From Cyanidium caldarium (taxonomy: Eukaryota; Rhodophyta; Bangiophyceae; Cyanidiales; Cyanidiaceae), in NCBI GenBank assembly GCA_026184775.1, contig JANCYW010000003.1, positions 434,001 to 498,000 on the forward strand: a DNA stretch of 64,000 nt. Reading direction: 5' to 3'. A program made the translations under genes and the position numbers. Of the stretch, positions 50,679 through 55,617 are shown piece after piece (positions within the stretch are counted from its first letter, which is position 1; every line of letters starts with the position of its first letter). The notes under the pieces are model-generated. The model had not been told where the DNA came from. It ran no database searches and saw only the letters and a list, made by a program, of their open reading frames with translations.

Positions 50679-51494
50679 ATGGCGGACAAATTGGAGTATG
50701 CGTCGGTGGGGGAGTCGGCGGCGCGGTACGACAAGGAGGCGGGCGCGGCCTGGACGGTGAGCGGCAGCGGGTACGGTATCGAGGACTTCGAGGTGGGCAC
50801 CACAGTGGCTTCGTGCGTGGCGCGTATTCGGCTGGACTTTTTGCGGAAGGTGTACTCGGTGCTGACGTTGCAAATCGGCGGCACTGCGCTGCTGGCCGTG
50901 TTGTTCATGTTCGTAACGCCGCTGAACGCGTGGATACTGCAGGCGGGCGGCTGGGTGTTGTGGCCGTGCTTTGTCGGCGCCATCGCCACGCTCATCGCGC
51001 TACAGTGTTTGCGCAACGACGCCAAGGCCAGCTTGCGGTTACTGACCGCCTTTACCTTTTTCGAGGCCATGACCATCTCGCTGGTGTGCGCGGCGTTCGC
51101 GGCGTCCGGCTTGGGCTATGTGGTGTTTCAGGCGGCGCTGCTGACCGGCCTGGTGTTTGGCTCGCTCACCGTGTACTGCTGGAAGAGTCAGCGGGACTTT
51201 AGCTTCCTGGGTGGCTTTCTGTGGGCGACGCTGCTGGTGGTGCTGGGCGCGTCGCTGCTGAACGGGCTGCTGGGGTTGACCGGCGCCTTCTCGCCCGGCC
51301 TGGCGTTTGGCACCAGCGTGCTGTCGGCGCTGCTCTTTAGCGGATACATCCTGTTCGACACCAGTCTGTTGATTCACCACCTGAGTCCCGACGATTGGGT
51401 GGTCGCCTGCGTGTCACTCTACCTGGACGTGATCAATCTGTTTGTGAACCTGCTTCAAATTTTGGCGCGCCTTCAATCCAGCAGCGACAACTGA
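50679..51494 (+). CDS. Bax-inhibitor-1 family membrane protein (TMBIM4/LFG4-like)
   Basis: A 271-residue protein with seven membrane helices after a soluble N-terminus of about 45 residues. The family motifs IRLDFLRKVYSVLTLQI, LLTAFTFFEAMTISLVCA, FSGYILFDTSLLIHH and LYLDVINLFVNLLQIL are present. TMBIM proteins are calcium-leak channel-like proteins of ER, Golgi or other inner membranes that limit cell death. Its last 39 bases (51456-51494) are part of a direct repeat whose partner lies 4.0 kb downstream, beyond the Fanzor gene. The gene itself looks whole. Confidence 0.93.
   Translation: MADKLEYASVGESAARYDKEAGAAWTVSGSGYGIEDFEVGTTVASCVARIRLDFLRKVYSVLTLQIGGTALLAVLFMFVTPLNAWILQAGGWVLWPCFVGAIATLIALQCLRNDAKASLRLLTAFTFFEAMTISLVCAAFAASGLGYVVFQAALLTGLVFGSLTVYCWKSQRDFSFLGGFLWATLLVVLGASLLNGLLGLTGAFSPGLAFGTSVLSALLFSGYILFDTSLLIHHLSPDDWVVACVSLYLDVINLFVNLLQILARLQSSSDN
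51456..51494 (+). repeat. Direct repeat, copy 1 (end of the TMBIM gene)
   Basis: The final 39 bases of the TMBIM coding region, from CAAATTTTGGCGCGC through CCAGCAGCGACAACTGA with the stop codon. It aligns to copy 2 at 55457-55493 with two long matching blocks: CAAATTyTGGCGCGC, and CCAGCAGCGAyAACTGA. The middle 5-7 bases differ. The two copies are 4,001 bases apart and bracket the Fanzor region. Confidence 0.8.
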
Positions 51495-51540
51495 AGCTGC
51501 ACGGGAGGCATGTAGTAAAGCGGTGCTGCTTGCAGTGATT

Positions 51541-51651
51541 GGCCTCGCCCGCACAACACACCGAACACATCTTACTGGTGCACGCCTCGTTGATGAGGTA
51601 CACGTCGTAGCCACAACGCAGAAACAGCTCGCGCCACCTCTTGCCCTTCAT
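51541..51651 (-). pseudogene. Fanzor remnant, opposite orientation
   Basis: About 110 bases on the minus strand translate to a stretch containing RCGYDVYLINEACTSKMCSVCCAG. This aligns to GYDVRLINEAYTSERCSVCCCAG of the neighbouring Fanzor (about nt 54792-54900) at roughly 78% DNA identity. It includes the catalytic-glutamate and first zinc-ribbon region only. Homology stops just past the GEA/GET position on one side and near AAGGGC on the other. It therefore comes from a related but distinct Fanzor copy, and it is inverted relative to the intact gene. Confidence 0.8.
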
Positions 51652-51948
51652 CCTCGTGCTGCTGCGCGAGCGTTGTAAGCCCTAAGACATGTCGTTGTAG
51701 CCATCCCCTGCTTGTCATGCGCCCAAGATCGCTGTGTCATTCTTGCTCCCGCCCGGCCCCTGACCCTCCAATCGCTCATTCCATCACCGCCGATTCGCGC
51801 GACGCGTCCTCTCCGGCACCCTCACTATCTGTTTCTTCCGCGACTTGTCATCGCTCCCCGCGCCCCGTGGCGCACTCCCCGTGGCCCCTGGGGCACCCAC
51901 CCGGCAGCCGTGGCGGCCAGCGCCCCGAGGGCGTACGAGCCCCCGGAA

Positions 51949-52043
51949 ATGGGCAAGGCGACGCGTGAAATCATGGAGGAGAAGCACGAGGAGATGTTGA
52001 AGCGCTTGCTCCAGCTGCAGAAGGACCGACCCTGGGCACCCGG
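51949..52043 (+). other. Coding-like stretch just upstream of Fanzor start
   Basis: From ATG 51949 a frame reads MGKATREIMEEKHEEML then KRLLQLQKDRPWAP, a charged helix with clear coding character. It runs into a different phase from the Fanzor ATG at 52071. In the Fanzor phase, the codons before 52071 also look coding (RNLSFARLLMEEMKW). A one-base shift near 52035-52043 would explain both. No GT...AG intron is visible between them. The native Fanzor start may therefore lie at 51949, with a small frameshift or sequencing error in this copy. Confidence 0.45.
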
Positions 52044-52070
52044 CGCAACCTGTCCTTCGCGCGGCTGCTG

Positions 52071-55000
52071 ATGGAGGAAATGAAGTGGGAGGACAGGTTT
52101 CATCGCCTGAAGCAGCAGTTTGACGGGCTGCGGGTGAAGTTGCGGGGCCCGCATCATATGCTGAATGTGTCTATCGAGATCGTCGACTTGTCGGCGGCGG
52201 CCATGGGCAGGGTATTCACTGACGCGGAGCTGAAGAAGCTGTTCAGGAAGCACAAGATGTCGCACGGCAGGAAGCCGCACGTGTACACCTTGCTCACACG
52301 GACTCTGGAGAAGAGGCTCATCAAGCCGGCGGACGTGGCGGCCACCCTGGAAGCACGTTTTGGGGAAGCGACACAGATGGCGCCAGCAGCAACGGTAGTG
52401 TTGCTCGACATCGAGTCGCCACCAGGGACCGAGGATGGCAAGCAGGAACTGTCGGCGGTGCCGCGAATGCCCACCTACACCAAGTACGAGCTGTGGCGCA
52501 TGTTGCTGCTGGACGGCCACGATGCCTCTCCGGTATGGGGGTGCCGCAAGCTGCTGCTGCTGCTGCTGGCGTTCCGTAAACGCCTCATCAGCGAGGATGC
52601 GTTTCTGTTCAACCTTCTTGGTCGGGTGCTGGCGGTGATGAAGTCGCACAAGCTGGCACTGGAGACGTTGCTGTGCAGTGGGGACACCCTAACGATCATC
52701 GAGGACGCGGTGCAGCGGATGAACGTGCTGCGGGGGCACGCGATGCGCCTGGCGCACTACTTCGCGGTGCACTGTCTGGAGGCGGGGCGGGAGTTGCCGC
52801 CGCTGACCCGCGACTTTTACGTGGCGGCGCTGTATGCGGTGTCGCGGGAGGGTCTGCCGCACAATCCGTCGGGTCTGCAGCGCGGGGTGAAGGAGTTTTT
52901 CGATGCAGAGTACAAGCTCACGATGGGCGAGGATGGCGAACCGGAGCTGGTCTCGCGGGAGAGACGGGTAGAACCCATCCTATTTGAGGGTGCGCAGCTG
53001 GCGGTGAACGCGGAGAACAACATCCGAGAGCACTTGGTGCAGCACTTGTGCCGCCTGGTGAATGTGCACTTCCAGGTGCCGGAGCTGGTGAAGCAGGTGT
53101 GGAGCAACCCGCATCTGTCGCAGAAGCAGAAGCAGCAGCGGGTGGCGGCCACTCGGGCCGAGTTCCGCGACGTCAAGAACGACGTGCTGCAGGTGCCCAG
53201 CGGCAGCGAGCTGAAGTTCACCTGCCCGAAGAAGTATCACGCGTTTGTGCGGGAGCTGCGGGAGGCCATTCTACCCAAGGAGCACGTGTTCGCGGAGCAG
53301 GGCGTGGCCTACGACGTCAAGCGCTGCCCGCACATGTACGCGCGGGGCTTTTTGGAGCTGTGTCGTCGGCTGGAGCGGGCGGGCAGTCGTTTGCCGGCGG
53401 CGTTGCCGCTGCGGGGCTCACAGGTGCCGGGAAATATCACCATCGACACGAGGGCGTTGGTGCATTTGGTGTCGCTGGCGAGCGACGAGCCGTTGCTGGA
53501 GGCGATGGCGCGGGTGTGGAGTGCGCCGGTGTGTGATATGGTGGCGGCGGTTCCGACGGGACAGGGGGAGCAGCCGGTTGCTGCAGGATCGGCTGACCCG
53601 GCGGCAGATGATGGTGACGATGAGGGCGAGCTGGTGGACGATGACGACGCGGATGCGACGGAGACGACGATGGAGACGGAGGCCGAGCAGCCCGAGGCGC
53701 CAACGACAGGTGCGACACCCCCAAATTCCCCACGCGACCGCCTGGTGCAGGCGATATCCGCGCTGGTGCAGCAGCGCCTGTCAGCGCTGCAGGCGGGCGG
53801 CGACGATACCGCGATGGCCGTGGAGACGACTGCACGCCCAGCCAGACCCACCAGGGCGCACGGCAACGCCGAGTATTTCGCCGACCGGATGGTGGACTGG
53901 CTGGTGCGCCGCCTGCAGGAACGCCCGGGCGCCCTACCCGAGGGCGTCACCGCCACTCGTCTGCGCGACGCCCTGGCCGCACCGCTGCGCCACCTGATGG
54001 TGGGTGCGCTGCAGGACACCCTGCGGCAGTTGCGGCGGCAGGCCTATGACGGACCCTTCACCCGGGAGATCAAGGACATCGTGTGGTGGAGTCGCGGCTT
54101 CAACCTGGACCACCGCGACTTTCGGGCCGGTCCGGCAGCTGACCCGCGCTATCTGTTCCGCCACATGATCCGGACCAACCGGGTGGCGGTGTCGGTCAGT
54201 CTGGTGCGTTGCGACATGCAGGAGGCGACGCGGATGCAGCTGCGGCGGCGCGGCCCCAAACCGGTGCCGCCATGCTGCAAGTACTTGGCCGACTGCTCGG
54301 AGGAGGAGCTGGAGCGTTTTCGACGCATGCGCCTGGTGGTGATCGACCCGGGTATGGGCAAGCTGTTGCACGTGTTCGACGGCGTGGTGCAGATGCAGTA
54401 CTCGCGCTCGCAGCTGCGGGTGGAGAGCAGGCACTACAAGTTTGAGCGGAAGCTGGGGCAGCTAGCGCAGACGGCACTGAAACACGGCGGGCGGACGCAG
54501 ACGGTGGAGCAGTGGAACACCGAGCTGTCGGAGCAGTGTGCGCGGGCGATGACCACGGACGGTCAGCGGGAGTGGCTGGGCGTGGCCAACCCGCTGGACC
54601 ACGCGATGTGCGAGCACCCCTGCAACGAGGAGTATCGCCGGCTGCGGCACCAACACCGGTGCAACGAGCAACGCTCGTACGACTGGATGCTGAATCGCTT
54701 CGAAAAGTTGTATGGCAAGCCGGGCGAAGTGCTGGTGCTGTTCGGGGACTGGGATATGCGGAATCACCATCTGCGGGGCAGCCCGCCGACCAAGGGCGAG
54801 GGCATGCGCGAGTTGTCTGAGAAACGTGGTTACGATGTGCGCCTCATCAACGAGGCGTACACCAGCGAGAGGTGTTCGGTGTGTTGTTGTGCGGGTGAGA
54901 CGAAGACGTTGATGCAGCGCCCGGACAAGCGCCGCGGGAAGGAGGGCGAGATGCGCACTGTATGGCGTCTGGTGCAGTGTCAGAACACGGAGTGTGAATG

Positions 55001-55334
55001 GATCCACAACCGCGATACGAATGCCGCGTTCAACCTGCTGCGGGTCGCGTTGGCCGTTCTGCACGGCCTTCCACGCCCGGCCTATCTGTGTCATCCCCGG
55101 TCTCAGAACACTTCCTCTACATCATCGAGCCGCTCACAGCCCGAAAGCGCCGACCGCCAAAATCGGCGGGAGAATCGGGGGCGGCGAAACGGAACCGGCG
55201 CTGCGCGGAAGCGGCGGCGCGTGGCCGCGCCGCGTACGTCGTCATCATCGAGTGCTGCAGAGCGAGACAGGCCGGTCACAACGCGAACGCGGACTCGTCG
55301 ACAGAGTGCGGCGATTGTCACCAAGCTCGGTTAG
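52071..55334 (+). CDS. Fanzor (eukaryotic TnpB homologue, RNA-guided RuvC nuclease)
   Basis: A 1087-residue protein with a complete Fanzor C-terminal core. RuvC-I is LVVIDPGMGKLLHVFDG with Asp759. A FGDWDMRNHHLRGSPP segment follows, then the Fanzor-type relocated glutamate in VRLINEAYTSERC (Glu928). The zinc ribbon is CSVCC...CQNTEC, and RuvC-III is WIHNRDTNAAFNLL with Asp982. The N-terminal ~700 residues are helical and divergent, with an acidic linker near 510-560. The C-terminal ~80 residues are basic with an NLS-like AARKRRRVAA. Fanzors use a 3'-linked guide RNA to cut DNA. All expected catalytic residues are present, so the protein looks active; this is inferred, not shown. The upstream stretch (51949-52043) may belong to it. 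Confidence 0.9.
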   Translation: MEEMKWEDRFHRLKQQFDGLRVKLRGPHHMLNVSIEIVDLSAAAMGRVFTDAELKKLFRKHKMSHGRKPHVYTLLTRTLEKRLIKPADVAATLEARFGEATQMAPAATVVLLDIESPPGTEDGKQELSAVPRMPTYTKYELWRMLLLDGHDASPVWGCRKLLLLLLAFRKRLISEDAFLFNLLGRVLAVMKSHKLALETLLCSGDTLTIIEDAVQRMNVLRGHAMRLAHYFAVHCLEAGRELPPLTRDFYVAALYAVSREGLPHNPSGLQRGVKEFFDAEYKLTMGEDGEPELVSRERRVEPILFEGAQLAVNAENNIREHLVQHLCRLVNVHFQVPELVKQVWSNPHLSQKQKQQRVAATRAEFRDVKNDVLQVPSGSELKFTCPKKYHAFVRELREAILPKEHVFAEQGVAYDVKRCPHMYARGFLELCRRLERAGSRLPAALPLRGSQVPGNITIDTRALVHLVSLASDEPLLEAMARVWSAPVCDMVAAVPTGQGEQPVAAGSADPAADDGDDEGELVDDDDADATETTMETEAEQPEAPTTGATPPNSPRDRLVQAISALVQQRLSALQAGGDDTAMAVETTARPARPTRAHGNAEYFADRMVDWLVRRLQERPGALPEGVTATRLRDALAAPLRHLMVGALQDTLRQLRRQAYDGPFTREIKDIVWWSRGFNLDHRDFRAGPAADPRYLFRHMIRTNRVAVSVSLVRCDMQEATRMQLRRRGPKPVPPCCKYLADCSEEELERFRRMRLVVIDPGMGKLLHVFDGVVQMQYSRSQLRVESRHYKFERKLGQLAQTALKHGGRTQTVEQWNTELSEQCARAMTTDGQREWLGVANPLDHAMCEHPCNEEYRRLRHQHRCNEQRSYDWMLNRFEKLYGKPGEVLVLFGDWDMRNHHLRGSPPTKGEGMRELSEKRGYDVRLINEAYTSERCSVCCCAGETKTLMQRPDKRRGKEGEMRTVWRLVQCQNTECEWIHNRDTNAAFNLLRVALAVLHGLPRPAYLCHPRSQNTSSTSSSRSQPESADRQNRRENRGRRNGTGAARKRRRVAAPRTSSSSSAAERDRPVTTRTRTRRQSAAIVTKLG

Positions 55335-55456
55335 ACTACCGAGCAACCAGATCCTCCGAAAGTCTGGATTACTCCGGGCTGACGAGGACAGCTGGGTCGG
55401 GTCGCCAGTTCTTCCGACAGCTCGGAGGAGTGTGAGCTGACGGAGGGACAGAGTCG
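55320..55456 (+). ncRNA. Candidate Fanzor guide (omega) RNA region
   Basis: In known Fanzor and TnpB elements the guide scaffold RNA overlaps the 3' end of the gene and ends at the element boundary. Here a 7-bp hairpin, GCTCGGT/ACCGAGC (55325-55331 with 55338-55344), encloses the stop codon. A second, CTTCCGA/TCGGAGG (55411-55417 with 55422-55428, one G-T pair), follows. Guide boundaries cannot be fixed by eye. The region is an inference from element layout plus these hairpins. Confidence 0.35.
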
Positions 55457-55493
55457 CAAATTCTGGCGCGCGCAAGCCAGCAGCGATAACTGA
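55457..55493 (+). repeat. Direct repeat, copy 2 (duplicate of TMBIM gene end)
   Basis: Thirty-seven bases matching the last 39 bases of the TMBIM gene (51456-51494), ending at the same TGA. It lies between the Fanzor 3' region and the tail of TSR3. Sequence upstream of this copy does not match the TMBIM gene further, and sequence downstream does not match that after copy 1. Confidence 0.8.
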
Positions 55494-55508
55494 GAATACC
55501 GCAGAGGG

Positions 55509-55525
55509 GTGTGTGTGTGTGTGTG
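55509..55525. repeat. (GT)8 microsatellite
   Basis: A short dinucleotide run in the 3' gap between copy 2 of the repeat and the TSR3 tail. Confidence 0.9.
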
Positions 55526-55617
55526 GTACCGTGCTGTCGCGCAACCCGGCGACGGAAATGCACCGCAAGTCAACGGCAGGCCAGCGCCGCGAACCCCACG
55601 GAGCGCAGTCAACCCCT

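Follow-up and report, generated by a model that had tools for sequence, protein, structure and literature searches.

Fanzors are eukaryotic relatives of the ancestors of CRISPR nucleases. In a 64,000-nucleotide (nt) window from chromosome 3 of the red alga Cyanidium caldarium, positions 52071–55334 of the forward strand form a single open reading frame (ORF) of 1087 codons without an internal stop, which an earlier reading of the sequence without database searches (hereafter the sequence-only reading) had presented as a full-length Fanzor nuclease. The locus raises the question of whether this frame encodes a Fanzor, what kind of element carried it there and whether the copy is still intact. 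That the protein is a Fanzor, with Fanzor1 as its nearest kind, is almost certain. We consider it probable that it is the Fanzor1-type protein of a DNA mobile element that multiplied in C. caldarium and is now represented mostly by relics, with a conserved 3' element as the scaffold of its guide RNA.

The protein and its catalytic residues

Since the whole DNA is 66% GC and rich in long spurious ORFs, the length of the frame is weak proof, and the Fanzor gene was accepted as real because of its homology; homology checks on other ORFs of the window covered four neighbouring genes. In a phmmer search against PDB, the nearest solved proteins were the Fanzor1s of Parasitella parasitica (PpFz1, E 2.9e-11) and Spizellomyces (SpuFz1, E 2.6e-9), while the Fanzor1 of Guillardia theta (GtFz1) reached only 0.26. 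A family profile matched these three solved Fanzor1s with E-values of 2.3e-69, 2.7e-64 and 7.8e-44 (the last being GtFz1), against 0.0036 or worse for TnpB-like chains; the likeness to TnpB and Cas12f2 in NCBIfam was sub-threshold only. Protein searches of limited reach found no orthologue beyond the alga's own genome except one metagenomic relative, P0001 (31% identity), recovered with residues 690–1010, which as a query itself gave 1282 matches (120 listed).

The catalytic residues were read from the translation and from an alignment of 56 rows, consisting of the window protein and 55 others (relatives from the P0001 search and proteins from protein searches). Two of these 55 are partial Cyanidium proteins, namely P0003, an N-terminal part, and P0002, which stops before D982.

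52071..55334, forward strand: Fanzor1-type ORF, 1087 amino acids (aa), with two blocks common to P0001 at residues 194–466 and 694–1019
54345..54347, forward strand: codon of Asp759, RuvC-I, in IDPG; Asp in 54 of the 55 other rows
54852..54854, forward strand: codon of Glu928, the relocated RuvC-II Glu, in NEAYTS, six residues before Cys935; Glu in 53 of the 55 other rows
55014..55016, forward strand: codon of Asp982, RuvC-III, in NRDTNAA; Asp in 53 of the 55 other rows

All three residues stand in the contexts claimed for them in the sequence-only reading, and the matching zinc ribbon is borne out as well: its four cysteines (C935, C938, C970 and C975), followed by NRD at 980–982, lie in a match to the zinc ribbon/TNB family PF07282 at residues 916–989 (E 4.2e-10, passing the Pfam cut-off). 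Asp982 aligns with the aspartate that, by our own count of the offset of a fused tag, we equate with D606 of SpuFz1, the third catalytic Asp position in PMC11423790. The Fanzor fingerprint of PMC10711439, DPG at the first Asp and the catalytic Glu six residues ahead of the zinc finger, is present in every feature; DPG corresponds to D759-P760-G761, with P760 in all 55 other rows and position 761 occupied by Gly in 13 and by Asn in 42. Outside this fingerprint, the WED-domain motif TDG, called characteristic of Fanzor1 in PMC10711439, reads TNR in the window (T702-N703-R704), where all three solved Fanzor1s read TDG and the other rows keep Asp in 53 and Gly in 52 of 55 cases. Given this TNR, the window protein is best classed as a Fanzor whose closest relatives are Fanzor1s and whose WED motif is divergent.

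Copies in the genome and the history of the window copy

The genome searched comprises 8,787,356 bases in 20 contigs; its chromosomes are denoted C1, C2 and so on, with the window copy on C3. The whole protein gave at least 42 matches and its C-terminal 228 residues at least 51, the weakest of which may belong to a second, more distant clade. When merged at less than 1.5 kb apart, the 51 C-terminal matches form 41 loci, including the window ORF and its upstream relic; 19 of the 41 are no more than 15 kb from a contig end, a zone amounting to 6.8% of the genome, and several subtelomeric copies are mutual duplicates, so that a p value for this enrichment overstates their independence. Short C-terminal Fanzor fragments, many with the 3' element, are repeated within 15 kb of chromosome ends, and both C15 and C16 carry more than one fragment at a single end.

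No second stop-free copy spanning the protein was found among the whole-protein or C-terminal matches. The window copy, open throughout and of Fanzor1 type, agrees with the earlier description of an apparently intact copy in a compact algal genome. The C13 copy (protein P0002, CDCA_CDCA13G3694) is 93.7% identical to it over 3648 columns and is a pseudogene, with stops at residues 6, 387, 969 and 1072 as well as frameshifts. The C1, C2 and C14 copies are mutually 97–99% identical across 3.9–4.2 kb and all broken; their near-identity points to recent duplication or conversion of already broken copies, with abrupt edges that differ between copies.

Among 24 C-terminal copies, the window copy included, residue 982 is Asp in nine, Asn in eleven (several of them near-identical to each other), Glu in two, His in one and unaligned in one, and residue 928 is Glu in nine, Gly in four, Ala in three and unaligned in eight. 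The Asp/Asn variation parallels the natural Asn of GtFz1. Asn982 alone is no sign of a dead copy, because GtFz1, which is active, naturally has Asn at this position and the D606N variant of SpuFz1 was more active than the wild type (PMC11423790). The claim that all RuvC residues are in place therefore stands as an observation and is a weaker sign of activity than it seemed, given Asn982 in 11 of 24 copies and Asn in the active GtFz1.

The following features bear on the completeness and recent history of the ORF.

51949..52071, forward strand: stretch of 40 codons (MGKATREIMEEKHEEMLKRLLQLQKD...) that formerly belonged to the N-terminus, now out of frame with the ORF; C12 and C14 have similar ones
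52596..52640, forward strand: junction at which C14, C1 and C2 have about 1 kb of extra coding sequence (C12 matched to C14 over about 0.8 kb); in-frame loss inferred for the window copy and C13
52532..53228, forward strand: 697-nt tract identical to the C13 pseudogene; no run as long in 20000 permutations

In both C12 and C14, a stretch like 51949–52071 precedes the part homologous to that beginning at M52071; it is in frame in C12, where it contains stop codons, and out of frame in the window and C14. The extra sequence (about 350 codons) falls between window residues ~180 and ~189 (near 185) and is at least partly present in C12. An intron was considered as the cause of this 1-kb difference and rejected, as the extra sequence can be read as coding in C12 (P0003) and for most of its length in C14. 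We infer a loss in the form shared by C3 and C13, because C12 is 96% identical to C13 beside the junction; the lost part would lie outside the core blocks, since P0001 aligns on the two blocks listed above. C14-type copies are without window residues about 380–534. Thus, 'full-length' is right for 1087 uninterrupted codons and not for the protein's former extent, with the stretch at 51949–52071 out of frame and about 350 codons fewer near residue 185.

The identity between C3 and C13 is 83–87% up to about 52390, 96–100% from about 52390 to 54040, mostly 95–99% to 55090 and 73–86% after that. The 697-nt run was also not reached in 20000 permutations of third codon positions alone, and C3 shares identical runs of 170 nt with C12 and 133 nt with C14. 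These patterns of identity show gene conversion between copies on different chromosomes. The comparison of C3 with C13 gives nonsynonymous (Ka) and synonymous (Ks) divergences of 0.033 and 0.064, a ratio of 0.52, which is 0.33 in residues 661–1015 (RuvC/TNB) and 0.76 in residues 1–187; the evidence for selection on the window ORF is weak.

The window copy may instead be a decaying relic that is no longer functional: the N-terminal frame, about 350 codons and TDG would have disappeared, a stop would simply not have arisen yet, and the middle would have been overwritten recently by gene conversion. This is a serious contender, to which we give somewhat less than an even chance. It fits the disappearance of the N-terminal frame and the internal stretch, the TNR in place of TDG, the weak selection signal and the fact that none of the other whole-protein or C-terminal matches covers the protein stop-free. 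It fits less well with 1087 codons without a stop, with a Ka/Ks of 0.33 in residues 661–1015, and with two core blocks that both align with the metagenomic Fanzor1, the lost part lying outside them. The protein is plausible as an RNA-guided DNA cutter; that this particular copy still works is a tentative proposal, with the odds leaning against it.

The 3' element and the ends of the probable mobile element

Downstream and upstream of the ORF, the following features were identified.

55241..55399, forward strand: conserved 3' element, ending ...CTGGGTCG, proposed as terminal repeat and as scaffold of the guide RNA; from profile and alignment
55405..55456, forward strand: another, incomplete copy of the 3' hairpin module (the second), ending ...GAGTCG; nhmmer match at 55405–55447 (E 0.0011), end set by eye
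51520..51667, reverse strand: inverted remnant of C-terminal Fanzor coding sequence, upstream of and head-to-head with the ORF, an arrangement also seen at C12 and C14
50679..51494, forward strand: upstream host gene, Bax inhibitor family (PF01027), by family match
51456..51494, forward strand: left copy of a 39/37-nt direct repeat, made up of the last bases of the Bax1-I host gene, stop codon included; BLAST E 4e-5 within 9.5 kb
55457..55493, forward strand: right copy of this repeat, which immediately follows the second hairpin module; it may be a target duplication and may supply the first bases of a guide

Past the zinc ribbon the copies are less conserved, until conservation picks up again over about 150 nt from 55241; on this ground, boundaries near 55100, once considered as the element end, were dropped. 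The last ~30 codons of the ORF (55241–55331) overlap the 3' element, and within the overlap copies differ by lengths indivisible by three. The tail of the protein is indeed basic, as noted in the sequence-only reading, which called it similar to a nuclear localization signal; because its end overlaps the conserved 3' element, its composition may derive partly from RNA or DNA constraint.

A profile built from nine copies gave 27 matches of at least 65 bits in the loci searched (25 distinct sequences), and the 3' element occurs at 24 places when overlapping loci are counted once, including the window and both arms of a unit on C10. At least four additional sites, at C2:183 kb, C8:148 kb, C16:131 kb and C16:214 kb, are without a protein match in the whole-protein, C-terminal and second-clade searches. 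Many copies diverge beyond ...GGGTCG; similarity continues past it for about 20–60 nt in C1, C2, C6 and the left arm of both the C2 and the C8 unit, and among C8, C10st, C16a, C14st, C15st and C20st it extends over 26–90 nt, so that ...GGGTCG is a provisional outer end of the element. A DNA search with 55400–55530 returned only itself.

A six-helix RNA structure has 83.8% of its cells paired. Its covariation is 0.246 against 0.209 ± 0.014 in shuffled alignments, a value that 3 of 500 shuffles matched, and the cells in which both sides are changed number 18 against 9.8 ± 3.2 (matched by 1 of 500). Slid structures gave covariation of 0.052 to 0.089, and an earlier, first structure gave 0.194 against 0.158 ± 0.012. 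The folding z-score of the window element is -1.66 or -1.61. One Fanzor1 RNA, that of SfAV, is reported to carry a terminal repeat within its scaffold (PMC10711439). A terminal repeat doubling as guide-RNA scaffold is a plausible role for the 3' element, with modest covariation and unremarkable folding stability.

Three units (C2:183165-183591, C8:148432-148583 and C10:47058-47845) carry the 3' element at each end in opposite orientations, its 3' end pointing outward. The C10 unit holds an inverted Fanzor C-terminal piece, and the outer 60 nt of the arms of the C2 unit differ at 4 positions by our own count. At C2 and C8 the units measure 427 and 152 bp and are without any Fanzor match; they may be non-autonomous elements, each possibly equipped with its own guide. 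When up to three mismatches are allowed, the end motif is matched 24 times, against two in a reversed control. Together with the inverted relic at 51520–51667, the elements seem to be bounded by inverted copies of their own 3' end, the left one being damaged in the window copy. The 39/37-nt direct repeat may be a long, aged target duplication and carries little weight, because only one was found. A mobile-element origin is well supported.

Under the preferred account of a mobile element with a guide RNA, the 3' element at 55241–55399 would be transcribed and would serve as both terminal repeat and guide-RNA scaffold, with the bases just downstream acting as the guide. Protein and RNA would cut guide-matching DNA beside a short motif, and host repair would use a sister locus as the template for copying the element, so that the gene conversion would be accounted for as well. 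Of the first 15 bases of the candidate guide in C3 (from 55457), 14 agree with the end of the Bax-inhibitor gene.

Several results weigh against this account. The window copy has lost TDG. With C14 as outgroup (867 codons), the C3 branch carries 12 synonymous and 13 nonsynonymous changes (20 and 36 on the C13 branch), and the synonymous excess on C3 has p values of 0.013, 0.044 and 0.086 at neutral fractions of 0.256, 0.30 and 0.33, with gene conversion adding doubt. Both RNA structures were drawn on the same alignment that tests them, and their number of double-change pairs is ordinary, being reached by 137 (first structure) and 124 (six helices) of 500 shuffles. Folding energy is barely below that of shuffled sequences (the mean z of 18 sequences is -0.49, with positive values in six), coding control stretches gave z-scores of -0.23, -1.28, 1.01 and -0.73, unaided RNAalifold consensus energies are weak (-4.4, -0.2 and -1.4 kcal/mol), and the element has no match in Rfam. 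Since no inverted end motif was found in the window at up to three mismatches, the left end is missing or unrecognised. Flanking direct repeats were seen in C3 only, a search at seven other copies or units (C2u, C8u, C10b unit, C13, C14, C2 and C1) giving nothing beyond a 9-nt match. No transposase was found either, and no search was aimed at one.

The folding results, with z-scores near zero like those of the coding controls, would also suit a 3' element that acts purely as a DNA end for a transposase to recognise and not as a guide RNA, as would its presence on both arms of short inverted units, two of them without a Fanzor match. We regard this as unlikely on balance: the covariation exceeds both shuffles and slid controls, a Fanzor1 RNA is reportedly scaffolded by a terminal repeat (PMC10711439), and the two roles are compatible. 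Domestication, in which the ORF is kept for a cellular task and is no longer mobile, is highly improbable: although the window ORF is the sole fully open copy of its lineage seen and lies between ordinary host genes, there is a 93.7%-identical C13 copy with shared converted tracts, the selection signal is weak, and no orthologue outside the genome but P0001 was found in those same protein searches.

Related Fanzors and the meaning of the locus

PpFz1 and SpuFz1 (PMC11423790) share with the window protein the D-E-D residues, the relocated Glu and the zinc ribbon, and align with it over both the RuvC/TNB region and an N-terminal core region; by comparison, the N-terminal part of the window protein is longer and TNR replaces TDG. 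The third catalytic residue of GtFz1 is Asn (PMC11423790), whereas the window copy has Asp. Fanzor1 elements of Cyanidiales are already known: CMe-1A of Cyanidioschyzon merolae is likewise a multicopy Fanzor1 element in a host of this order, with about 150 copies of ~3 kb, about 80% identical to their consensus, and target duplication given as undetermined (Bao and Jurka 2013, PMC3627910). CMe-1A is reportedly without terminal inverted repeats, whereas C. caldarium has short units ended by inverted copies of the Fanzor 3' element; the two are likened by description. The element of the SfAV Fanzor1 has inverted ends, as proposed for that of the window copy, and its terminal repeat reportedly lies inside the guide-RNA scaffold; its RNA was sequenced (PMC10711439), while the window RNA is proposed from conservation.

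Literature searches with little coverage of subscription journals found no earlier description of C. caldarium Fanzors, and neither Saito et al. 2023 (PMC10432273) nor PMC10711439, in the text available, mentions red alga, Rhodophyt- or Cyanidi-. The label 'uncharacterised system' needs narrowing in view of the known Cyanidiales elements and of other open Fanzor-like ORFs in this genome.

These other ORFs form a second, distant Fanzor-like clade. Two ORFs on C7 (L003 and L007/L082), with PF07282 matches and Fanzor motifs, make up their own branch with support 100 in an unrooted core tree of 19 sequences, separate from the window protein and from the P0001 group; both were treated apart from the window family. 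An open ORF of 1107 aa at C7:386518-389841 (forward strand) has the motifs LTDG, GLDPG, VDEYRTT and DRDVNA, keeping the TDG lost by the window copy. The clade has 14 matches in the genome, one of which, at C10:41202-42920, has an open frame of 928 aa.

The most far-reaching version of the preferred account, in which an alga adapted to heat and acid retains a functional Fanzor that uses the 3' terminal repeat as its guide scaffold, and guide-directed cuts repaired from sister loci make the nuclease a driver of conversion, is a long shot. C. caldarium lives in a hot, acidic habitat (PMC9812998). A Fanzor from such a habitat would be a candidate for a heat-stable eukaryotic RNA-guided nuclease. 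A tiny genome with nearly complete chromosomes, ~40 loci, Asp/Asn variation, conversion tracts and a shared 3' element is also a good setting in which to study the use of Fanzors to their elements.

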